Source: Oligoflexales bacterium (GTDB lineage: Bacteria > Bdellovibrionota_B > Oligoflexia > Oligoflexales > JALZUQ01). From it: a DNA stretch of 43,158 nucleotides. Position numbers and translations under genes: made by a program. The notes below the pieces were generated by a model. It made no database searches. It was not told the origin of the DNA and saw only the letters and a list, made by a program, of their open reading frames with translations. Location of the stretch: assembly GCA_023301565.1 (NCBI GenBank), contig JALZUO010000053.1, positions 1-43,158 of the forward strand, written 5' to 3'. Position 1 is the stretch's first letter; each line of letters opens with the position of its first letter. Of this stretch, positions 10,886 through 42,751 are shown piece by piece.

Positions 10886-12127
10886 CTAGTGAGCAGCTTC
10901 GTACATACGAAGGTCCGGATCGCCGGCAGCCACTACAGGGTACTTGGTTCCAAAATAAAAGATCGACGCCAAGAACAACCCAAGAACACCGAGTCCTACA
11001 CCTATCTCAATCCAAGGAAAGTACATTTGGTTATGCGAGTCCACTACGTCTGGCATGACTACAAGCATCATCACAAACCATTGAGCCAAGATAATACAGC
11101 AACACACGATAGGCGTGTAAACAGGCGTGTACTTCGAAGCTTTTGGAATAAGACCAAACAAAGGAAGTACAAAATTAAATAAAGGAGTCACAATTGCGAT
11201 CGTCAGCCATGGCTGGTTTAACCTGTGAAAAAAGTACTCTGTTTCTTCTGGGACGTTACCGTACCAGTAGGTAAGAATATGAGCATAAGTCAAATACGCA
11301 AAGAAGATACTAAAGCCATAGAGGAGCTTACCAATGTCATGAAACTGCTGCGTTTTGTACTGCTTTCCAATCTCGGTTGACTTAAGCCAGAACATCCACA
11401 AAGAAAGGCTTGCGAGCATGGTTTGCATCGCCAAAGCAAAAAGCCATCCGCCCCATAGGGTGGAAAACCAAAGTGGCTCAAGAGACATCAAAAGATCAAA
11501 ACCTAACAAAGAAAAACAGCAAGCATAAAGAACTAATACAGGAGCACTCCAGTAACGGAGGTGATCCCTTGTTTTAAGTGCATACTCTTTGGCATCACTA
11601 GCACCATCTAAGTATTTTTGATCGCGGCTTACAACGCAGCGAAGCTGCCACCATGCTCCAAAAGCAATGCAAACAACCGCAAACACATCGCGGTACACAA
11701 GAAAGTCTTTTACGAGCCAGTCACGTTTTCCTGCAAAGTGATCGAGCATATGCGGATCCATCATCCACTTATACATATGATCAGCACTGCCGAAACCTGT
11801 GTACAAACAGCCTAATAGGATCAAGAAAAAGAAGCTTGCGACCATCACAAAACTGCCAAACATTTCGTGAAGCCTTTTTACGGGCCTTCCCCAGCGGGCG
11901 CGCACGATTTCCTGCATACCTGCAAACGACAACCCAATAACGGCAATCGAGTAAAAGAAAAAGAAGTTAAAGAGCAGCGAGCCCCAAGTTCTGGTCGAGT
12001 CACTGCCAAAACCAAATACTAAAGCAGCTAAACCAACTAACACCAAAACAGCGATCGATACTTTAACGATTCCAGACGGCTGCAGGCGGCTATCGGTGAG
12101 CGGATGTACGTGTCCGTGAGATCCCAT
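10886..12127 (-). CDS. actF: Alternative complex III subunit ActF (quinol:cytochrome c oxidoreductase membrane subunit)
   Basis: ActF is one of the two large NrfD/PsrC-like membrane subunits of alternative complex III, which oxidises quinol and passes electrons to a periplasmic carrier or an oxidase. The 413-residue protein has about ten hydrophobic segments with His and Trp residues at their ends, such as WMMDPHMLDHFAGKRDW and THILTYWYGN-like stretches typical of ActF. The ATG has GAGGGA about 7 bp upstream. It follows actE by 12 bp. Assignment rests on similarity to ActF and on complete act gene order. Confidence 0.9.
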   Translation of the reverse strand: MGSHGHVHPLTDSRLQPSGIVKVSIAVLVLVGLAALVFGFGSDSTRTWGSLLFNFFFFYSIAVIGLSFAGMQEIVRARWGRPVKRLHEMFGSFVMVASFFFLILLGCLYTGFGSADHMYKWMMDPHMLDHFAGKRDWLVKDFLVYRDVFAVVCIAFGAWWQLRCVVSRDQKYLDGASDAKEYALKTRDHLRYWSAPVLVLYACCFSLLGFDLLMSLEPLWFSTLWGGWLFALAMQTMLASLSLWMFWLKSTEIGKQYKTQQFHDIGKLLYGFSIFFAYLTYAHILTYWYGNVPEETEYFFHRLNQPWLTIAIVTPLFNFVLPLFGLIPKASKYTPVYTPIVCCCIILAQWFVMMLVVMPDVVDSHNQMYFPWIEIGVGLGVLGLFLASIFYFGTKYPVVAAGDPDLRMYEAAH

Positions 12128-12139
12128 AAATAATTCCCT

Positions 12140-12649
12140 CTACAACTTGCCTTGCAACTTGCGCAGATAAAGCACAAGTGGCCAGCGTTCTTCGTCCGTT
12201 ATTTTATCGCCATACCCAGGCATGTTGGCCCAACCAAAAGTGATCCGATAATAAAGCTCACCGTCAGTATATTTAGAATATGTATCCGTCGTTATGTTGG
12301 GTGGCACAAGCGGATACTCTTTAGATAAGGAATGATCCCCTTTACCTTGAGGTCCGTGACAAACCGCGCAGTAGGTTTCAAAAGCCCACTGACCTTTTGC
12401 TAGGATCTCGTCTGTAACCGGAGCTCCGCGAAGTGGGTTTTTTAAAATAGCCGATGCACCAGCCGGCGTCGCCGGATAATAAAGCGCGTTTGAAGTAACC
12501 GCACCTTCTGGACGTTCAAGGTATGACTCGTGAGCCTTCACCGCAGGGCTGTCTGCCATGTCAGGCATGTACTGAATCTTAGTCGATCTTTTGCTGCAAG
12601 AAGCTGGCAGCAAAGCCAATGCGAATAAAACTAAAAGTAACTTTTTCAT
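12140..12649 (-). CDS. actE: Alternative complex III subunit ActE (monohaem cytochrome c lipoprotein)
   Basis: ActE is the single-haem cytochrome c subunit that receives electrons from the complex on the periplasmic side. The 169-residue protein has a lipoprotein signal ending LLPASC, so C18 is predicted to be lipidated. The haem motif is C94-A-V-C97-H98, and the GWANMPGYG segment supplies a likely Met axial ligand. GPQGKGD after the haem site is typical of class I cytochromes. Its ATG overlaps the actD stop by one base (TAATG), a sign of coupled translation, and GGAGG precedes it. Confidence 0.9.
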   Translation of the reverse strand: MKKLLLVLFALALLPASCSKRSTKIQYMPDMADSPAVKAHESYLERPEGAVTSNALYYPATPAGASAILKNPLRGAPVTDEILAKGQWAFETYCAVCHGPQGKGDHSLSKEYPLVPPNITTDTYSKYTDGELYYRITFGWANMPGYGDKITDEERWPLVLYLRKLQGKL

Positions 12650-13251
12650 TAGGCGCCCTCCTCCTCTTTAGTAGCTTGAGTAGAGAACTGTCCAAAGCCT
12701 TTAACCTCTTTCCCGCCGCACTCTTTGAGCACAGAAACGGGTGCACTTTCAGGGCTTTTTCCGGGTAAAAACACCCCGAACTTATCGTCAGTTAAACGAT
12801 CATCTAAAACAGGTGTCTTAGGGTTTGGTATTTTACAAAACACTAGCATTCCTAAAATGGTGCCAACACCACCAAAAAGAATGGTCATTTCAAAACCTAT
12901 GACTACATAAGCTGGCAAAGAATATAAGCCCGGTGTTTTTCCGCCAACCATAAGCGGGTAATCATAGGCGTATAAAAAACAAATTAAAAAGCCAAAAAAT
13001 GTACCCGAAAGTGCCATGACCAAGGTAAACCAGCGAACAGGAGAGTAACCGAACCCTGCGGCATGCTCTAACTCATGATACGAGGTAGGGGCAAAAACTT
13101 CATAGTCTTGGCAATCAGCTCTTTGGCGCATACGCTCAATCGCATTACAGGTATGGTCTAGGTAATCAAAAATAACCAAAGTCCCGTGTTGAACCGCACG
13201 CTCGGGAAGCAGTCCAAATCGAATCAGCAGCTCTATCACTTTATCCAGCAT
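12649..13251 (-). CDS. actD: Alternative complex III subunit ActD (DUF3341)
   Basis: ActD is a membrane subunit of alternative complex III with two transmembrane helices and soluble ends. The 200-residue protein has hydrophobic segments around residues 75-95 and 115-140, and a polar C-terminal part with FGVFLP, matching the DUF3341 family. It starts 3 bp after the actC stop with GAGGT upstream, and its own stop overlaps the actE start. Gene order confirms the identity. Confidence 0.9.
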   Translation of the reverse strand: MLDKVIELLIRFGLLPERAVQHGTLVIFDYLDHTCNAIERMRQRADCQDYEVFAPTSYHELEHAAGFGYSPVRWFTLVMALSGTFFGFLICFLYAYDYPLMVGGKTPGLYSLPAYVVIGFEMTILFGGVGTILGMLVFCKIPNPKTPVLDDRLTDDKFGVFLPGKSPESAPVSVLKECGGKEVKGFGQFSTQATKEEEGA

Positions 13252-13254
13252 AAC

Positions 13255-14691
13255 TTACAACCTCGCCACTTGCGCTTGCTCTGCAGCGTCAATCTCTTTT
13301 TGTTTTTCTGGGCTCCATGGCTTAGGCATGATGAGCTTAAGCTCGGACATCGAAATAAAAGGAAAGTATTTACAGAATAGAAAGAACCAAAAGAAGAACC
13401 AACCGAAACTTCCGATCGTAATCCCAATCTCTACCAAACTCGGTGCGTAATGCCCCCAAGAGCCAGGAAGAAAGTCTTCTACCAAACTTGATACAACAAT
13501 GTTGTAACGCTCAAACCACATACCTACGTTGACAAGGCAGTTGACGACCATCGCAATCAATATATTGCGGCGCGCCCACTTAAACCAGTAGATCATAGGG
13601 AAAATGCAGTTACAGAACACCATGACCCAAAAGTAAAATGCGTAAGGGCCAATCGCACGCTTTACAAAAACACCCCACTCATAAGGGTTGCCTGAATACC
13701 AAGCTACAAAGAACTCAATACCGTATGCATAAAACACAATCGTAGAGGTCAAAAGAACGAGCTTGTTACAAGCTTCTAGGTGATCGGGCAGGATGAACCG
13801 CTCGAGCCTAAACATATAGCGAACTGGTATTACCAAAAAGTAAACCATAGCAATCCCAGAAAGGATCGCACCAGCTACAAAGTACGGAGGAAAAATTGTT
13901 GTATGCCAACCCGGCTGGATCGACATGGCAAAGTCCCAAGAGACGACGCTATGCACCGATAGTACTAGAGGAGTCGCAAGAGCTGCTAAAAGGCCATAAC
14001 CTGCCTCATAGTGCCACCACTGCTTGATCGTTCCGCGCCAACCAAAAGAAAGAAACCCGTAGATAAAACGTTTGATGCCTTTGGATCGGTCCCGGATACT
14101 TGCCATATCAGGCACAAGGCCCATGTACCAAAACAACAAAGAAATTGTCAGGTAGGTCGATATTGCAAAAACATCCCACATCAAAGGAGACAACAGGTTT
14201 GGCCAAAGGTTGTTTGTTGTCGGAAGTGCTCCTACAACAGGTGCCATCCATAAAGGAATCTTCCAGACACGTCCGGCATGAATCAGTGGAAACAAACCAG
14301 CTGTAATAACCGCAAAAATCGTCATCGCCTCAGCGCTGCGGTTTACCGTGTTTCGCCACTTAGCTCGAAACAAGAAGAGAATCGCAGAAATCAAGGTTCC
14401 TGCATGGCCAATACCAACCCAAAATACAAAGTTAGTGATGTAAACACCCCAGTAAACCGGGCTGTTGATCCCAGCCATACCCAGGCCGTAGGTGATTTGA
14501 ATCCCCCAGCAAATTGCACCCATGATTGTTGCTAAAAGAGCAACGCCCCATGCAACATAAAAACTAGGGTGTGGCTTGCGCAGGGCTACAAGAACCCCAT
14601 CGTTTACAGCTGATATGGACACGTTCCAAGATGTTTTATCGAGGATCTCGTCTTTGTAGGCTTTTGCCAATGGCTCAGTTGTTGTACTCAT
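13255..14691 (-). CDS. actC: Alternative complex III subunit ActC (NrfD-like quinol-binding membrane subunit)
   Basis: ActC is an NrfD/PsrC-type integral membrane protein thought to hold the quinol site of alternative complex III. The 478-residue protein has about ten transmembrane segments. Conserved family stretches include WVGIGHAGTLISA, RSAEAMT and the region YNIVVSSL. The start ATG abuts the actB stop directly (14691/14692), so the two genes are translated together. GGGGGA lies upstream inside the actB end. Confidence 0.92.
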   Translation of the reverse strand: MSTTTEPLAKAYKDEILDKTSWNVSISAVNDGVLVALRKPHPSFYVAWGVALLATIMGAICWGIQITYGLGMAGINSPVYWGVYITNFVFWVGIGHAGTLISAILFLFRAKWRNTVNRSAEAMTIFAVITAGLFPLIHAGRVWKIPLWMAPVVGALPTTNNLWPNLLSPLMWDVFAISTYLTISLLFWYMGLVPDMASIRDRSKGIKRFIYGFLSFGWRGTIKQWWHYEAGYGLLAALATPLVLSVHSVVSWDFAMSIQPGWHTTIFPPYFVAGAILSGIAMVYFLVIPVRYMFRLERFILPDHLEACNKLVLLTSTIVFYAYGIEFFVAWYSGNPYEWGVFVKRAIGPYAFYFWVMVFCNCIFPMIYWFKWARRNILIAMVVNCLVNVGMWFERYNIVVSSLVEDFLPGSWGHYAPSLVEIGITIGSFGWFFFWFFLFCKYFPFISMSELKLIMPKPWSPEKQKEIDAAEQAQVARL

Positions 14692-17600
14692 TTAAGGATG
14701 ATCCCCCTTTGAATCCGAAGAATCGTGTGCAGGCTCATGTGCAGGCTTGTGAGAGGACCCGTGCGAAGAGCCATGAGGTTTCTCCCCGTGATCGTCTTTA
14801 CCGTGCCCACTGCCGTGTTCCTCACCGTGATGTCCACCTATCTTGTGATCTACAAGCTGTGCCATATAGGTCACGTTAGGCTGCGTCTTGATTCCATAAT
14901 GCCCGTGCTCTGGGTCACCGTTAAGGGCCGCATAAGTTCTAGGGTCTTTGCGGGCTATACTTGCTTCGCTTTTTTCGTTTAGTAAGTCACCAAACTTAAT
15001 CGCTCCTGTGGAACAAGCTTGCTGGCAGGCAGTCTGTAGCTTCCCATCCTCTAGTCTCTCTTTGCCGGTAAGTTTTTTACCGCGCTTTAGAAGAGAGTGT
15101 TTTTCATCTCGAATTCGCTGGACGCACATCGTGCATTTTTCCATGACCCCACGCTGCCTCACCGTTACATACGGGTTCGTAGCTCTTGGGTTCATCTTAG
15201 TGTTCCACTTATAAGTAAACCAGTTAAACCGTCTTACCTTATAAGGGCAACCGTTTGCACAGTAACGAGTACCTACGCAGCGGTTGTAAGTTTGTACGTT
15301 TAACCCTTCGTCGTCATGTGTCGTTGCATAAACAGGACATACGGCTTCGCAAGGAGCATGATTACAGTGTTGACAAAGCATTGGTTGAAAGCTGACTTGA
15401 GGCTCTAAAGTTTCACCTTCAAAGTAGCGGTCAATACGAATCCAGTGCATCTGGCGTCCCATAGCTACTTCGCGCTGGCCTACTTGCGGTACATTGTTTT
15501 CGACAGAACAAGCAACCATACAAGCCGAGCAACCACTGCAAGAGCTAAGGTCTATGGTCATTCCCCAACGGAACCTACCCACTTTAAGTGCAGGGTAAAG
15601 ATCAGGAGCAGTATCCAGGTCAGTTACGATCCCTTTTTGAGATCTCGCAACCATTTCTGCTTTTGTTTGTTTTTTGATGATATCTGTCTTGTCACCTAAA
15701 GAGTGGAGGCCCTTTTGCTGGTGAGCAAGCCGTACGTAGCCGCCTGTCTTCTTAAGCTTTACGGGAATGTTGGCTGTTTGAGCCAAACCACTTCCACTTG
15801 CTAAAAAGTTATGGACTAACTCTAAAGGGTCACTACCTACACCGTTCGAGGTACCTTCACCTTTAAAGGTTCGGCCGTTACCTCTATTTAAAATCACTTG
15901 AGATGGGTGCAACCCTGGGAATGGGAACACACCTACTTTTACAGAACCATGTACAGCCGACACTTCAACTTCTTCGTACTGTTTTAAGCCCATCTTTTTG
16001 GCTGTATCAGGGTTTATGGCAAGCCAAGAATCCCATGCAATGGTTGTTAAACCATCTCCTACTTCTTGCAGAACAGGTCGGTCTGAACCACGCCCATCTA
16101 AAAGCCTGCCGTCCAGAGGAGCTGTTAAAACAAGCCCTTCTTTTGCCGCTGAACGTGCAGGGATAATTTCGCCGGCTACAGGCTTTGCACCGAGACCTAG
16201 ATCTTTTGGCGCATACTCCCAGAAACCTTTTTTCTGCACACCGTGCAAAAACTTACGAAACCCTGCTGCTGAACCACCGCCGGATACGTAACGATTTTTC
16301 CAGCTTGCTTCGAGGTATTTATGAAAGTTTTTATGACCAAGCGGCTTGCCCATTGCAGCAGCAATCCACATCAAGCTATCTTCGGCTTGACGCGCACCAG
16401 TGATTGACTTTACCGCCGGTTGACGGAAACTCCAAAGCCCTCGTACTGGATTTGCATCGCCCCAACTCTCAAGGTAGTGCGTATTTGGCATCTGATAGTC
16501 TGCATAAGCATCCGTCTCGTTTGCCATAACCTGCATGGAAACAACCGTACCTATTTCTTTGGCCAGTCCTTTCCAGCCCCATGAAGCTGGAAGATCGAAT
16601 GCAGGGTTGGCATCGATCACGATAAGAGCGTCCAGGTTTGCACCAGACTGTTTTAAACGTCGAAGATCCGCATAAGGTGCCGCAGGAATTTTAATTTTAC
16701 GTTGAAAGTCTAAAACCCCATTTGAATAAGCTTGAACAACTCTGTTGATCGCAACAATCACAAGCTGAAGGTTTTCTGAGTTATCATCGCTTGCACTAGA
16801 CCCAGCAACAACCACGCTAGGGCTGCTAATCATCTTCTTTGCCAGCTTTTTAAGGTAAGGAAGCGATGTTTTAAAGCCTGCCTTCTGTTGTGCTAACTGT
16901 CCTTTTAGACGCGCCAAAACCTGGCTGCCTTGCGTGCTCGCCCGAAGCTTTAAGATTTCCTCTAGAAGAGTGGCTGCTACCCACAGCTCGCTTCCAGGTG
17001 CAATTACTTTTCTTTTATCTGCCTTAGCACCTGTATTCGATAAGCGAGACTCAAACTGAGTAAAAGTCGCGTATGTTTCTGGGTGTTGTGGATCAAGCCG
17101 GTGCGCATCTGAAAAGTTTCGCACAGTTGCAGGAGATGCTCCTGTATCTAAAAACTCAGCGCTAATCCCAACAATTTGCCGGGCATTCTTAAAGTTTATA
17201 CTCGGCGTTGCATAACGGCCAAAAGTCAGCTGATGCGCTCTTGCTTCGGCATACCCTCTACTGTCAGCATCGTATAAAAACAGGTTATTTACTGAAGAGC
17301 CTACAGAAACCAAAAAGTCTTTGTATAACTGCAAAGAGCTTCCGGTAAGTCCGCGAGCTAAGATACCAATGTTTTTAGACCCTTTTAGTCTTGCGCCTAA
17401 GTGTTCATACGCCTCTATAAAGGTTGCAGGATCGATCCGTCTGCCGCGGCGAATCACAGCTTTGCGTCGACGCTGCGGGTTGTAAAGAGTTTGAAGAGTT
17501 GATTGCCCCAGAGAACACGAACCACCATCAGAAACTGGGTGATCTTTGCTTCCTTCAATTTTAGAAGGGCGGCCTTGAAAGGTTTTGACCTCGACGCCAC

Positions 17601-18069
17601 AACCTGTGGAACACTCGCCGCAGGTAGAAGAAAAATAATCTGCATTACCAATGGCAGAGTCCATAGGGTGGTCCACATAGGAGATAGCTTTTTCTTCAGG
17701 GCGAAAAACACATCCCGAGGCAGCAGCCATTAGGCCGCCGGTACTGAAAGCCTTTAACAGGTTTCGCCTAGTCCAGCTTTCTGCTTTATGGCCACTATCG
17801 TTCGGTTGAGCCGACTTTGCACCTTCAACTACGGACTCAAACGCAGGAGCTTTATCTCTTGCATCCGCGCTTTGCATCAGCTCTGGCATTGGCTCGACGA
17901 CATCCGTATAAAGCTTGGAAGCTCGCTTAGAAAACTCCGGCATTTCTACCGGCCGCTCAAGCGGCTTGTCGCCGTCTACCTCAACCACACTTTGATGGCT
18001 GCCTAGCTTATCCAAGCTTGCATCAAACGAATCTGACTCTGTCTTGTTGTCCAAGGTTTCTTTACTCAT
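14692..18069 (-). CDS. actB: Alternative complex III subunit ActB (molybdopterin-like plus iron-sulfur fusion, TAT signal)
   Basis: ActB carries electrons through iron-sulfur clusters between the quinol site and the haem subunits. The 1125-residue protein has a polar leader of about 100 residues and then a twin-arginine signal (RRNLLKAF at 101-108), as in TAT-variant ActB proteins. The B1 domain resembles a molybdopterin oxidoreductase and has a Cys quartet C150, C153, C157 and C185. The ferredoxin-like B2 domain (about 835-1050) has CSGCSACMVAC, CQHCNHAPCEAVC, CVGTRYCANGC and CTMC with a later CQQAC, enough for four clusters. It ends in a histidine-rich tail of about 50 residues (12 His), which I do not know as a standard ActB feature. 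Confidence 0.93.
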   Translation of the reverse strand: MSKETLDNKTESDSFDASLDKLGSHQSVVEVDGDKPLERPVEMPEFSKRASKLYTDVVEPMPELMQSADARDKAPAFESVVEGAKSAQPNDSGHKAESWTRRNLLKAFSTGGLMAAASGCVFRPEEKAISYVDHPMDSAIGNADYFSSTCGECSTGCGVEVKTFQGRPSKIEGSKDHPVSDGGSCSLGQSTLQTLYNPQRRRKAVIRRGRRIDPATFIEAYEHLGARLKGSKNIGILARGLTGSSLQLYKDFLVSVGSSVNNLFLYDADSRGYAEARAHQLTFGRYATPSINFKNARQIVGISAEFLDTGASPATVRNFSDAHRLDPQHPETYATFTQFESRLSNTGAKADKRKVIAPGSELWVAATLLEEILKLRASTQGSQVLARLKGQLAQQKAGFKTSLPYLKKLAKKMISSPSVVVAGSSASDDNSENLQLVIVAINRVVQAYSNGVLDFQRKIKIPAAPYADLRRLKQSGANLDALIVIDANPAFDLPASWGWKGLAKEIGTVVSMQVMANETDAYADYQMPNTHYLESWGDANPVRGLWSFRQPAVKSITGARQAEDSLMWIAAAMGKPLGHKNFHKYLEASWKNRYVSGGGSAAGFRKFLHGVQKKGFWEYAPKDLGLGAKPVAGEIIPARSAAKEGLVLTAPLDGRLLDGRGSDRPVLQEVGDGLTTIAWDSWLAINPDTAKKMGLKQYEEVEVSAVHGSVKVGVFPFPGLHPSQVILNRGNGRTFKGEGTSNGVGSDPLELVHNFLASGSGLAQTANIPVKLKKTGGYVRLAHQQKGLHSLGDKTDIIKKQTKAEMVARSQKGIVTDLDTAPDLYPALKVGRFRWGMTIDLSSCSGCSACMVACSVENNVPQVGQREVAMGRQMHWIRIDRYFEGETLEPQVSFQPMLCQHCNHAPCEAVCPVYATTHDDEGLNVQTYNRCVGTRYCANGCPYKVRRFNWFTYKWNTKMNPRATNPYVTVRQRGVMEKCTMCVQRIRDEKHSLLKRGKKLTGKERLEDGKLQTACQQACSTGAIKFGDLLNEKSEASIARKDPRTYAALNGDPEHGHYGIKTQPNVTYMAQLVDHKIGGHHGEEHGSGHGKDDHGEKPHGSSHGSSHKPAHEPAHDSSDSKGDHP

Positions 18070-18096
18070 TTATCGTACCCGTCATTCAAACAAATA

Positions 18097-18708
18097 TTAA
18101 AAGTGACAGTTTGCACATTTGACCAATCGCCCGTGATTTTCTGGGTCTTGGTTATGCACGTGACACCGCAAACACCACCCCATTTGCAGAGGCGCGCCTT
18201 GATATACTTCTTCCATTTCAGCAACTTCACTATGGCAATTCACGCAGTCAACACCGGCTGCAACGTGCGGCTTATGCGTAAACCGCGCATAATCCGGCAA
18301 ATCATGAACCTTAGTCCACTCTACTGGCTTGTTGTTATCGTAGTGTGAAGTTAAAAGCTTGATCGCTTCTTTGTCTGTCGCCGTGTACTTATGACAACCC
18401 ATGCACGTGTTGGTACCAGGAATACCAGCAGAAGGACCTTTTCGAGCAGCCGAATGGCAATACTCACAAGGCATCTTCATGTCACCGGCATGTTTCTTGT
18501 GGCTAAAAGGAATCGGTTGCTCAGGCTGATAAGCAATCGGCCAATACCGATCGACCGAATCACCGGGAGACCAAAAGAAGAACCACTTCGTGTTCATCCA
18601 CTTGTGATCTTTAGGATCCAGTGGATTACAGCTAGTGGTCGCGAAACAAGTCAAAAAGATCGCAGATAAATAAAGAAGAGCTAAGCTCCATCGTACAGCG
18701 TATTTCAA
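18097..18708 (-). CDS. actA: Alternative complex III subunit ActA (pentahaem cytochrome c)
   Basis: ActA is the multihaem cytochrome c subunit of alternative complex III. Five CxxCH motifs are visible (CEYCH, CMGCH, CVNCH, CLRCH, CANCH), the usual five. A hydrophobic N-terminal segment anchors or exports the protein and ends in FATTSC, a possible but weak lipobox. I start at the TTG at 18706-18708, giving 203 residues, because GAGGG lies 7 bp upstream. A frame to 18750 would add a polar leader. It is the first gene of the act operon, 27 bp before actB. Confidence 0.92.
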   Translation of the reverse strand: MKYAVRWSLALLYLSAIFLTCFATTSCNPLDPKDHKWMNTKWFFFWSPGDSVDRYWPIAYQPEQPIPFSHKKHAGDMKMPCEYCHSAARKGPSAGIPGTNTCMGCHKYTATDKEAIKLLTSHYDNNKPVEWTKVHDLPDYARFTHKPHVAAGVDCVNCHSEVAEMEEVYQGAPLQMGWCLRCHVHNQDPENHGRLVKCANCHF

Positions 18709-19045
18709 AAATTCACCCTCACGCCTGCAAGGCCCCAAACATAAACGCAAAACAGCGCTCTATGTGTTAGCAAAAAAGAACTGCAGAATCCATGGAGTCG
18801 ACCTAGGAGGATGCAAAATTAAGCAAAAGACGTACACCCCTACAACCAGTAGTGTTTTCGGTTTCCATGAAGCCAAAAAACAGCCACTCACTAGCCTGTG
18901 ACTTAAGCAATTGGAAGCTTTTTAGACACGCTGAGAATCCTTCTCAACAATTTGAGGCATATTTAACGCTTGCAGGACAGTATGTTGGCCAGTTAGCCAT
19001 GTTTTTAGAATGTAAAAAAATAAAAATAAAAGCAGAGATAAAAAC
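18709..19045. other. Spacer upstream of the act operon
   Basis: This stretch must hold the act promoter on the minus strand, but I cannot pick a convincing -35/-10 pair. A short plus-strand frame (18867-19049) is described under rejected items. AGGAGG at about 18805 is directly followed by ATG and then a stop within four codons, so it is not a usable start. Confidence 0.4.
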
Positions 19046-38799: not shown

Positions 38800-39174
38800 A
38801 TGAAGCTAGTAGCTACACTAATTGCGGCCATGTTTATGGCATCTGCATGTGCAACCAAGCCACCAGTGCAAAAGTCAAACCTGACTTACGCCAACGTAAA
38901 GAAAAACATCGTCAAGGGTCACACTTCACAGGCTGAAGTTATTCAACTTCTTGGGTCTGCAAACGTGATCAGCAAGAACCGGTCTGGCAACGAAGTATGG
39001 ACGTACTCGAAGCAATCTTCTGAACAGTCTTCTAGCGGTATATTTGGTGGAATTGGCATCCTAGGTGGTAGTAGCGCAGTGAGCCGCTCTTCTGCAAACA
39101 CGTTTGATCTAATCGTAACATTCGATGGCAAAGATATCGTCGAAGATTACTCCGTGGTTTCTTCACAGTTCTAA
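38800..39174 (+). CDS. SmpA/OmlA (BamE-like) lipoprotein
   Basis: The 124-residue protein has a lipoprotein signal (FMASAC, Cys17). NLTYANVKKNIVKGHTSQAEVIQLLGSANV and GNEVWTYS match the SmpA/OmlA fold, as in BamE, which stabilises the outer-membrane assembly machine. A Gly/Ser-rich loop (about 72-100) interrupts the fold, and the end, DLIVTFDGKDIVEDYSV, is typical. AAGGGG precedes the ATG. It is followed by another lipoprotein gene 28 bp on, probably in one operon. It could be a paralogue rather than the true BamE. Confidence 0.82.
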   Translation: MKLVATLIAAMFMASACATKPPVQKSNLTYANVKKNIVKGHTSQAEVIQLLGSANVISKNRSGNEVWTYSKQSSEQSSSGIFGGIGILGGSSAVSRSSANTFDLIVTFDGKDIVEDYSVVSSQF

Positions 39175-39202
39175 TTTAACTAAACTTTATGGGGATTAAA
39201 AA

Positions 39203-39688
39203 ATGAAATTAGTCTTAGCAAGTCTTTTAGGGTTATTGGTCTTTACTGGATGCGAAACCACTCCAGAGATGTCACCACAACAACGCAGGTCTCTTCAGAT
39301 CAGAACCTTTGATTCTACGTACAAAAACGTATTCAACGCTTTTAAAACAGTGCTTCAAGACGAAGGTTACATCATCCGTAACCAAGACTTTTCTGGCGGT
39401 ATGATTTTGGCTGAAGCGACCAAGTCCAGCAACCACGGAGCGGTTAAGTTCTTGCGTGCTTTTGCAAACAACGGCAACGACTATGTGACATCTGAAGGTT
39501 ACAGCATCTCTGTAAACCTTGAGGAAATAAACAAGACTGCGACTGAGTCTCGTTTGATTCTACAAAAAACTCAAAACATGAAGCGCGGCAGCTCAATAGG
39601 CAACGAACTTCTAGACCCTGCGGTTTACAAGAACATTTACCAAAAGGTCAGCGTTGAGATCCAGCGCCGCCAAGCATCTGGTAGATAG
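39203..39688 (+). CDS. Lipoprotein of unknown function
   Basis: The 161-residue protein begins with a lipoprotein signal (LLVFTGC, Cys17). The mature part has a pattern seen in small helix-grip lipoproteins: RTFDSTYKNVFNAFKTVLQDEGY, IIRNQDFSGGMILAEA, then SVNLEEINKTATESRLIL. A shared phrase of this kind occurs in several outer-membrane lipoprotein families, so I give no name. It lies 28 bp after the BamE-like gene and before a strong terminator. The two are likely co-expressed. Confidence 0.75.
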   Translation: MKLVLASLLGLLVFTGCETTPEMSPQQRRSLQIRTFDSTYKNVFNAFKTVLQDEGYIIRNQDFSGGMILAEATKSSNHGAVKFLRAFANNGNDYVTSEGYSISVNLEEINKTATESRLILQKTQNMKRGSSIGNELLDPAVYKNIYQKVSVEIQRRQASGR

Positions 39689-39716: not shown

Positions 39717-39741
39717 GCGCCTTGTTTGGCGCTTTTTTTTT
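39717..39741 (+). terminator. Intrinsic terminator after the lipoprotein pair
   Basis: GCGCC (39717-39721) pairs with GGCGC (39728-39732) around a 6-nt loop, followed by nine T (39733-39741). Confidence 0.92.
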
Positions 39742-39869: not shown

Positions 39870-40316
39870 ATGAAAGCACAAGGAATTTTAGCACTAGCCT
39901 TAGGTTTGATGGTATCAGCAGCGGCATTCGGCCAAACAACCTACCTACCAAACACCGAAGTATCTGTTATCGACAAAGCAGAGCTCGTAGCTAAGTACCC
40001 AGATGCGACAAAAATTGAAATCGTTGTAGGCCGCGATTTTTCCGTAGACCTATGTAACGGCTACAGCTTACTGGCTAGGCCCGAATATTCTAATCAAAGC
40101 ACTACCCAAAAAATAGAGTTCAACACTAACGGCCTCGTTAACAGCACAAGGCGAGCTTGCGGAGGATCACCTGGATACAGAGTACAGTTTCTTCATGTCG
40201 GAGTGAATTCGTTTGGAGTAGGACCTCAGCAATCAGGCCTTATTGAAATCAAATACCCAGAAGGCTACAAAGTAAAATACAAAGTCATTACTTCTTCAGG
40301 ACTAATCGACTTGTAG
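39870..40316 (+). CDS. Ecotin-like periplasmic serine protease inhibitor
   Basis: The 148-residue protein has a signal peptide cleaved near AAAFG. The mature part resembles ecotin: IEIVVGRDFSVDLCNGYSL aligns with the ecotin strand and first Cys. NSTRRAC (91-97) aligns with the reactive loop STMMAC, and IEIKYPEGYKVKYKVI with the C-terminal strands. C62 and C97 match the ecotin disulfide. The predicted P1 residue is R94, with R95 at P1', instead of Met-Met, suggesting trypsin-like targets. The N-terminal part of ecotin is shortened. AAGGAG lies 6 bp before the ATG. Family assignment is by my own alignment and is fairly but not fully sure. Confidence 0.65.
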   Translation: MKAQGILALALGLMVSAAAFGQTTYLPNTEVSVIDKAELVAKYPDATKIEIVVGRDFSVDLCNGYSLLARPEYSNQSTTQKIEFNTNGLVNSTRRACGGSPGYRVQFLHVGVNSFGVGPQQSGLIEIKYPEGYKVKYKVITSSGLIDL

Positions 40317-40395: not shown

Positions 40396-40701
40396 TCAAG
40401 CTCTTTTGCTTTTGGTTATTCGTTTGGGGATATCTTTTAAGCTTTGCTCAGCATAGAAAACATCGAGTGCAATCTGTGCATTAAGCCAAAAACTTGCACT
40501 AACCCCAAAAGTATAAGCTAACTTAATAGCCACTGCAGTGGATACAGAGGTTTTTTCGTTTACGATTCGGTTGATCACTTTGACGTCGACCCCAATATGA
40601 TCAGCAAGGTGCTTTTGGGTAAGATCCAGAGGCAGTAGAAACTCTTGATGTAAGATCTCACCTGGAGTAGTCGGTTTTCTTTTTCTCTTGAATTTACTCA
40701 T
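40396..40701 (-). CDS. higA: HigA-family antitoxin
   Basis: HigA is the DNA-binding antitoxin that neutralises HigB and represses the operon. The 101-residue protein starts its domain with TTPGEILHQEFLLPLDLTQ, the hallmark of this family, followed by a helix-turn-helix (KHLADHIGVDVKVINRIVNEK) and ASFWLNAQIALD. A basic C-terminus follows. AAAAGGA lies 5 bp before the ATG. It follows higB by 17 bp, the usual toxin-first order. Confidence 0.92.
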   Translation of the reverse strand: MSKFKRKRKPTTPGEILHQEFLLPLDLTQKHLADHIGVDVKVINRIVNEKTSVSTAVAIKLAYTFGVSASFWLNAQIALDVFYAEQSLKDIPKRITKSKRA

Positions 40702-40718
40702 AACAGTCCTTTTAGCAT

Positions 40719-41009
40719 CTAATGGTAGTCGGTGATTTCAACACACTCTGGCCCACTATCTTCCCACACAAAAATAATTCTCCACTTCGCATTAATTCTA
40801 ATGCTATAAAAACCGTCTAAATCTCCTCTAAGAGGTTCTAGTTTGTTACCTGGAGGGGCCATTAAATCTGCTAGAACCAAAGCAAAATCAATCATATCTA
40901 GTTTTCTAGAAACTACTTTTCTAATATTTCCCCAACCAGCACCTTTTAGAACCTTTCCTGAAATAAAAAACTCTTTTGTATACGGATCTCCAAACGATTG
41001 AATAGCCAC
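40719..41009 (-). CDS. higB: HigB-family toxin (RelE superfamily)
   Basis: HigB is a ribosome-dependent mRNA interferase. The toxin has 96 residues from the GTG at 41007-41009, which has AAAGGG just upstream; a TTG start 6 codons earlier is less likely. The family end is clear: MAPPGNKLEPLRGDLDGFYSIRINAKWRIIFVW and then VEITDYH, with basic residues and the final His and Tyr expected of active HigB. Its partner higA follows. Function as a toxin is inferred from family and context. Confidence 0.9.
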   Translation of the reverse strand: MAIQSFGDPYTKEFFISGKVLKGAGWGNIRKVVSRKLDMIDFALVLADLMAPPGNKLEPLRGDLDGFYSIRINAKWRIIFVWEDSGPECVEITDYH

Positions 41010-41410
41010 GTGACCCTTTCGGTGCAAAATATACTCTTATGGGGTATACCGTCAACAGGTATTTTCTGCTTATATAAAAATCAAAAGCAAGACTCAAAGA
41101 GTCCTTTTATAAAAGCCAGCCCACGCCCATAAGTGACCTGTTGAACAACCCCTTCGCAAAAACCCCTTTGCAGCACCCTGCCTGTACGCCCAGACCAAGC
41201 TTAATCTAGTTTTTATATCCTTTTTAATCCCTCTTTTACTTCTGATTGACACATTCCAGCCGAGCAGCACATGCGCACGCAGCGATGAATCCCTAGGCCC
41301 CCTGAAAACCCATCACATTAGGTGCTTACTAAGACAGCGGCGTCTGCGAGCATGCTGCAAATGAATTTGTTAAACTTTAACCGTGATTGAACCAGTAAGG
41401 TGGACGTGCC
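41010..41410. other. Intergenic region of about 400 bp after the higB start
   Basis: The left end holds the higBA promoter. Further on, a hairpin GACTC-AAA-GAGTC lies at 41091-41103 and a 12-bp palindrome CTTTTATAAAAG at 41104-41115. The remainder is non-coding and should carry the promoter of the next gene; TTGACA near 41248 is a possible -35 but has no good -10 partner. Confidence 0.4.
41028..41055 (-). promoter_or_regulatory. Predicted higBA promoter with internal operator
   Basis: On the minus strand, TTGACG (41050-41055) and TATATT (41028-41033) are 16 bp apart. A perfect palindrome GGTATACC (41043-41050) lies inside the spacer and abuts the -35, a good place for autorepression by HigA. 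The leader to the GTG start would be about 12 nt. Confidence 0.55.
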
Positions 41411-42028
41411 GTGCAGATACCAGATATAATTTCTTTTCTTCCGTTCCTAGTCATTCCCGCAGTAATTTTTCTGAAGATCAAATTTGTTAGCAAGCAAAGA
41501 AAAGCACTGCGCCAAGCTTGGTCAAAAATAGCTCAAGAATACAGGTTAGAGCTCTCAGAGAAGCCCTCTGGTTTGCAGGCTTTGACCCTCCATGAAAAAC
41601 TACAGGGAACAATCAAATCCAGCTATTACCAGGTAGACCTTCAAGCAGTCGGTTCTGGAAAAAACAAAACAACTTATACGAGGTTTCAAGGGAAGTTTAA
41701 AAAACCTCTTGGCTTAGGGCTTGGAATATACAAGGAGGTGGCCTTACTCTCCTCTATAGCCAAAACCTTTGGCAGTAAGGACATACAGACAGGCGATAAG
41801 TCTTTTGACAGCCGCTACGTGATCAAAGGCGAGCAGGAGTATCAGGTGATGAGCTACTTGAACTCCTCACGCAAGGAGGCAGTTGAGCAGTTATTTTCCG
41901 AAGGCGACAAAATCAACCTATCGGATGAAAGGGTAGAAAGGATGGTTAGAGGAAAAATCACAGATCACGAACTCCTTAAATCGCACTTAGATGCAATAAT
42001 AGCTGCTGTCACAACCTTAGAACGCTAG
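41411..42028 (+). CDS. Membrane-anchored protein of unknown function (paralogue A)
   Basis: The 205-residue protein starts with GTG and has AAGG about 10 bp upstream. An N-terminal membrane helix (about 5-25) is followed by a soluble domain with YTRFQGKFKKPLGLGLGIY, KDIQTGDKSFDSRYVIKGEQ and a C-terminal helix. I do not recognise a named family. It shares its domain pattern with the next gene, so the two arose by duplication. The shared DI..G...FD..YV.KG pattern suggests a conserved fold. The two are probably co-transcribed. Confidence 0.7.
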   Translation: MQIPDIISFLPFLVIPAVIFLKIKFVSKQRKALRQAWSKIAQEYRLELSEKPSGLQALTLHEKLQGTIKSSYYQVDLQAVGSGKNKTTYTRFQGKFKKPLGLGLGIYKEVALLSSIAKTFGSKDIQTGDKSFDSRYVIKGEQEYQVMSYLNSSRKEAVEQLFSEGDKINLSDERVERMVRGKITDHELLKSHLDAIIAAVTTLER

Positions 42029-42082
42029 CTTCCGGATATAGGAAGGACAAAACCCAACCCTTAAGAAACAAGGAGCGTAAAC

Positions 42083-42751
42083 ATGAAAAGCCAAATGGAA
42101 CTGTTTCAAATTTTTATGGTGCTGGTTTTCCTGGTTGGAGGCATAGTGATATGGAAGCTGGTTAAACGTTTTTTAAACCAGCGCAACGCTGCCGATGCTA
42201 TTTGGAAAAGAATTGCTAAAGAGTATGGGCTAAACCACAACATCAACAAACCAGGTATCACAGGTGCACTCGAAGACGACCGGATGTATGGGAACATCGA
42301 TTCACGCGGCTATGCCGTCGAGGTCTACCACACCCAGAGACCCTTCCCTGTCTTTACAGGCTCTGAAACCAAGTACTTGTTGAAACAAGACTACTACACC
42401 CGCTTTAGAGGCGCCTATAAGCAAAACCTTGATCTAGGCCTAGCCATCTATGCTAAAACCCCGTTGTTTTCAGCTGTAGACCAGGCCTTTGGTGGCCAGG
42501 ATATTGAAATAGGATATGCTGAGTTTGACCAAAAATACGTGGTCAAAGGCCGACATCAAAACCAGACCAGAAGCCACCTAACAGAACACCGCATGGAAGC
42601 TATCATCATGCTTCTAAACCTCTATTGTGATGCAACTATCACAGACAATCTAGTCGAGGTAACCGTCCCCGGACGCTTCTGTGACTACGCTACTTTTGAC
42701 GAATACATGAAACGCTTTGTCTATGCAGTGCAGACCCTAGATAAGAGTTAG
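42083..42751 (+). CDS. Membrane-anchored protein of unknown function (paralogue B)
   Basis: The 222-residue protein has an N-terminal membrane helix (about 7-28) and a soluble domain with YTRFRGAYKQNLDLGLAIY and DIEIGYAEFDQKYVVKGRH, aligning along its length with paralogue A. It has an extra insertion near residue 85 (QRPFPVFTGSETKY). AAGGAG lies 7 bp before the ATG. The spacer to paralogue A is 54 bp. Neither has a visible catalytic motif. Confidence 0.72.
   Translation: MKSQMELFQIFMVLVFLVGGIVIWKLVKRFLNQRNAADAIWKRIAKEYGLNHNINKPGITGALEDDRMYGNIDSRGYAVEVYHTQRPFPVFTGSETKYLLKQDYYTRFRGAYKQNLDLGLAIYAKTPLFSAVDQAFGGQDIEIGYAEFDQKYVVKGRHQNQTRSHLTEHRMEAIIMLLNLYCDATITDNLVEVTVPGRFCDYATFDEYMKRFVYAVQTLDKS

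Follow-up and report, generated by a model that had tools for sequence, protein, structure and literature searches.

Ecotin of Escherichia coli holds its target protease at two sites, distributed across a dimer, and represents the textbook case of two-site inhibition. The second of these sites is formed by the 60s and 100s loops (PMC9904509). It was demonstrated that the exchange M84R increased the affinity of E. coli ecotin for the trypsin-like MASPs and largely offset R108A/N110A or the deletion of the C-terminal dimer arm, with lectin-pathway IC50 values of 107 nM for the wild type, 83 nM for the site1R/site2A form and 141 nM for the site1R monomer (PMC9136129). A structure of a man-made ecotin carrying M84R/W67A/G68A/Y69A/D70A, bound to rat trypsin, is available as PDB 1ezs. 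In nature, Arg is found at P1 of ISP2 (Arg87), an ecotin-like inhibitor of the eukaryote Trypanosoma brucei (PMC8248637), and in most of the Campylobacter ecotins examined P1 is Leu (PMC7773321).

The inhibitor protein described here shares with E. coli ecotin the predicted fold, the pair corresponding to Cys50-Cys87 (numbering of the mature E. coli protein) and the frame of the reactive loop, whereas E. coli ecotin presents Met-Met at P1-P1', an intact site 2 and a full dimer arm. The closest sequences found were ecotins of Bacteroidota (Sphingobacterium, Chryseobacterium, Tenacibaculum and Myroides), with 25-36% identity; they have a similar leader, the Cys pair and an STxxAC loop, but retain WGY and N110, extend further at the C-terminus and have no Arg at P1'. 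With 1ezs, the protein has in common the combination of P1 Arg and loss of the 60s-loop residues of site 2, although the mutations listed for 1ezs affect neither R108/N110 nor the dimer arm. It also resembles T. brucei ISP2 in its P1 Arg, but in that protein conserved residues of the site-2 region are highlighted in the published alignment (PMC8248637).

The inhibitor gene and its relationship to ecotins

The window, that is, the whole 43,158-nucleotide stretch of Oligoflexales DNA analysed, contains the inhibitor gene near its 3' end, with these features at and before its start:

39717..39741, forward strand: terminator-like stem-loop with a T run at the end of the upstream gene (consensus scan only)
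39870..40316, forward strand: inhibitor gene, whose product is a divergent 148-aa serine protease inhibitor of the ecotin family (PF03974, MEROPS I11) (ORF, translation, tblastn, fold match and PF03974 score)
39870..39932, forward strand: probable signal peptide, residues 1-21 (MKAQGILALALGLMVSAAAFG), cut before Q22 (by eye)

The ORF starts at an ATG preceded by the Shine-Dalgarno-like AAAAGGAG. Its leader, read by eye, shows a basic start, a hydrophobic core and A-F-G before Q, and the leaders of related ecotins are similar, likewise ending before Q. Since a terminator-like hairpin (39717-39732) lies 5' of the gene, the inhibitor is probably transcribed alone, as its own unit, and the genes on its 3' side point toward it. 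Directly downstream, a HigB-like toxin (PF05015, E 1.9e-17) and a helix-turn-helix antitoxin-like gene occupy 40396-41027 on the reverse strand, followed by two adjoining membrane-anchored proteins, apparent paralogues of one another (41411-42751, forward). Upstream lie two small lipoprotein-like genes (38800-39688, forward), the first a weak BamE match (E 0.097). Elsewhere in the window, a gene run at 10886-18750 on the reverse strand resembles, by its translations, alternative complex III (Act) of electron transport, including a multihaem cytochrome, an iron-sulfur/molybdopterin-like subunit, membrane subunits and a cytochrome c.

PF03974 was the only Pfam family listed for the inhibitor protein, with 21.1 bits (E 3.2e-4). 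Since this score is 1.1 bits below the gathering cut-off of 22.2 bits, which is an annotation threshold and not a biological trait, profile-based annotation would miss the protein; an NCBIfam search returned no family. BLASTP of E. coli ecotin directly against the inhibitor protein gave no significant match, and one Bacteroidota ecotin aligned across most of its length at E 6e-9, so that the tie to E. coli ecotin goes via the Bacteroidota sequences. When 84,980 species genomes were scanned by tblastn, 40 loci were recovered at E 4e-10 to 2e-4 (values relative to the candidate stretches only), including Sinomicrobium, Parapedobacter and Flagellimonas besides the four genera named above, the best match showing 33% identity to a Bacteroidota ecotin. 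A profile built from Bacteroidota and E. coli ecotins, with the inhibitor protein left out, scored it at 33.9 bits, and among 2000 shuffled versions of it the highest score was 6.3 bits. A PDB sequence search with the single protein found no ecotin; the search with an alignment, itself composed mostly of ecotins, found ecotins only. The N-terminal half is divergent relative to ecotins. Judged by these sequence comparisons, the protein is an ecotin homologue, with a similarity that is far above chance and extends beyond the loop motif.

An all-beta ecotin fold was supported by modelling. The AlphaFold model, built from an alignment with 29 of the 40 related loci, presented a pLDDT of 72 overall and a pTM of 0.62; per ten-residue block, pLDDT was 77-89 across residues 41-130, except for 64 at residues 111-120, and about 82-85 in the reactive-loop stretch. 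In Foldseek, all 29 top PDB matches were ecotins at probability 1.00, the next match having 0.04, and VIA-align gave Z 9.2-9.8 for ecotins versus 4.2 for the next fold, with 1ezs among the tied best matches (Z 9.8), level with other ecotins. Since the model rests on an ecotin alignment, this result is not independent of homology. A single-sequence model was poor (pLDDT 45) and was set aside for the fold search. The sequence-only reading had recognised the S-T-R-R-A-C loop and the Cys pair and had called the protein ecotin-like, proposing structure prediction as a check; translation, homology search and the model all agree with it.

Reactive loop and second binding site

The residues considered below lie at the following positions:

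40053..40055, forward strand: Cys62, equivalent to ecotin Cys50 (invariant alignment column)
40098..40109, forward strand: residues 77-80 (STTQ), replacing W67-G68-Y69-D70 in the 60s loop of site 2 (ungapped count back from P1)
40143..40160, forward strand: reactive-site loop S92-T93-R94(P1)-R95(P1')-A96-C97 (translation and alignment)
40158..40160, forward strand: Cys97, equivalent to ecotin Cys87 (invariant alignment column)
40221..40238, forward strand: residues 118-123 (GPQQSG), replacing R108-Y-N110-S-K-L in the 100s loop of site 2 (ungapped count back from the conserved P130)
40296..40313, forward strand: shortened C-terminal arm, residues 143-148 (residue count after P130)

C62 and C97 are the only two cysteines of the protein and, by alignment, form a putative disulfide. 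At P1, the 40 Bacteroidota relatives carry Q (15), M (12), R (6), L (5), K (1) and E (1), which indicates that this position varies freely in the family and that Arg occurs naturally. The Arg at P1 had been singled out from the sequence as predicting trypsin-like targets. The residue, R94, is real and the prediction stands as such, but it is neither new nor exceptional, since six of the 40 Bacteroidota ecotins (with STRMAC or STRMGC loops) and T. brucei ISP2 also carry it. In addition, P1 is known to be just one determinant in E. coli ecotin (Seong 1994, cited in PMC7773321 and PMC8248637), so that Arg is no proof of a narrow trypsin-like range. At P1', 39 of the 40 relatives have Met and one has Lys; Arg was absent from all 40.

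The loss of the site-2 residues, which the sequence-only reading had overlooked, is the more distinctive feature. WGY and N110 are kept in 40/40 relatives, and R108 in 33, while in the inhibitor protein R108 and N110 of E. coli ecotin correspond to G118 and Q120. After P130, 18 residues remain, versus 22 in E. coli ecotin and 23-27 in the relatives; the ten-residue dimer arm thus retains six of its ten positions and ends four residues earlier than in E. coli.

A decayed second copy and distribution in the class

A second ecotin-like copy was found in the same genome (C29:46275-46415, reverse strand; L010 3276-3416), with 49% identity over 47 residues. It is a broken 3' fragment and probably a pseudogene: its frame comprises only 70 codons, its stop-to-stop translation has no Met, and on its upstream side the similarity continues as far as a loop reading S-L-R-R-C, versus STRRAC in the inhibitor protein. 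Since this fragment also lacks RYN and has the same end point, the loss of RYN and the short C-terminus are both probably older than the duplication that gave rise to it.

No further ecotin was found in 57 other genomes of the class, searched with PF03974 above cut-off, with the inhibitor protein and with a 30-row alignment, although the negatives of the PF03974 search are weak, since it missed the inhibitor gene itself. The weak PF03974 matches in the class (best E 0.003) covered part of the model only and lay inside longer frames. Plasmids, phages and viral contigs searched with the inhibitor protein yielded no relative. Horizontal transfer from Bacteroidota is a possibility, given that the best matches are there and that the gene stands alone in the class, but its GC content of about 42% fits the surroundings. 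Since the sole detectable relative in the class is the decayed copy in the same genome, selection on the inhibitor gene is not measurable, and the gene could itself be drifting.

Proposed mechanism, targets and competing readings

The reading that we favour, and consider fairly probable, is that of a secreted one-site ecotin-family inhibitor of trypsin-like S1A proteases, with Arg at P1 and targets outside the cell. From the leader and the loop we infer export to the periplasm or the outside and canonical inhibition of serine proteases of the trypsin fold (S1A). The disulfide-braced 80s loop would insert into the active site of the protease, presenting Arg94 at P1, a trypsin-like S1 pocket being favoured. 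As the residues of site 2 are missing and the dimer arm is incomplete, binding mainly via site 1 is expected, and the P1 Arg would supply the affinity normally added by site 2. The compensation by M84R in E. coli ecotin, together with the comparable natural changes reported here and with 1ezs, favours such a one-site, Arg-directed inhibitor.

An ordinary dimeric two-site ecotin, with the broad specificity of the E. coli protein and with STTQ and GPQQSG making the site-2 contacts, is unlikely. Campylobacter ecotins vary at site 2 and were nevertheless characterised as ecotin orthologues (PMC7773321), and six of the ten arm positions remain; but W67-D70, R108 and N110, all shown to matter, are replaced, while all 40 relatives keep WGY and N110, and the C-terminus falls four residues short of that of E. 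coli ecotin and 5-9 short of those of the relatives. It is slightly less probable still that the protein is a degenerate ecotin that lost inhibition or gained another function, like ISP1 of Leishmania, which is weakly inhibitory. The divergent N-terminal half, the loss of site 2, the lack of any other ecotin in the genomes of the class examined and the broken state of the second copy would fit such decay, but the ORF is intact and has retained its leader, ribosome-binding site, Cys pair and reactive loop.

That the inhibitor could shield the cell from its own proteases had also been proposed from the sequence, and a self-protective or regulatory inhibitor of its secreted S1 proteases would find candidates in the genome, which holds 12 trypsin-family matches, several secreted or lipoprotein-like, as well as the decayed ecotin copy 5-7 kb from two trypsin-family genes on contig C29. 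However, three of these proteases are DegP-like, and in those whose Ser195 motif can be read, the sixth residue before the Ser, which in trypsin is Asp189, is A, S, N or T by a simple and rough residue count; the P1 Arg is thus unmatched. The proposal therefore finds no support in those of the cell's own S1 proteases that have a readable motif, E. coli ecotin has no action on endogenous proteases either (reviewed in PMC9904509), and we regard a self-directed role as quite improbable. At least seven of the S1 proteases are secreted or lipoprotein-like (C82, C127, C8, C162, C130, C29 and C9), none with a trypsin-type Asp189 by this count; that of C130 has Ser at this position (counted by eye). 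The trypsin-family match at C29:38872 is without Cys191, and that of C151 is without a readable Ser motif. For the favoured one-site inhibitor, proteases from outside the cell are the most likely targets, be they of prey, competitors, grazers or hosts, which are indistinguishable here.

A natural P1 Arg was already known in ecotins, and what is unusual here is the loss of site 2. The gene shows that ecotins reach a bacterial class in which 57 other genomes yielded none, and that members of this kind can fall just below the Pfam cut-off. Somewhat short of even, and held tentatively, is the possibility of a natural one-site ecotin lineage in which the two-site dimer grip was traded for a P1 Arg loop, constituting a subfamily missed by current profiles. 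Such a lineage would have arrived through evolution at what had been built into E. coli ecotin by engineering. Mutants of E. coli ecotin suggest that a strong P1 can replace the two-site arrangement, and a natural ecotin with P1 Arg and no recognisable site 2 would provide a direct test of whether a strong P1 replaces the two-site dimer in nature.
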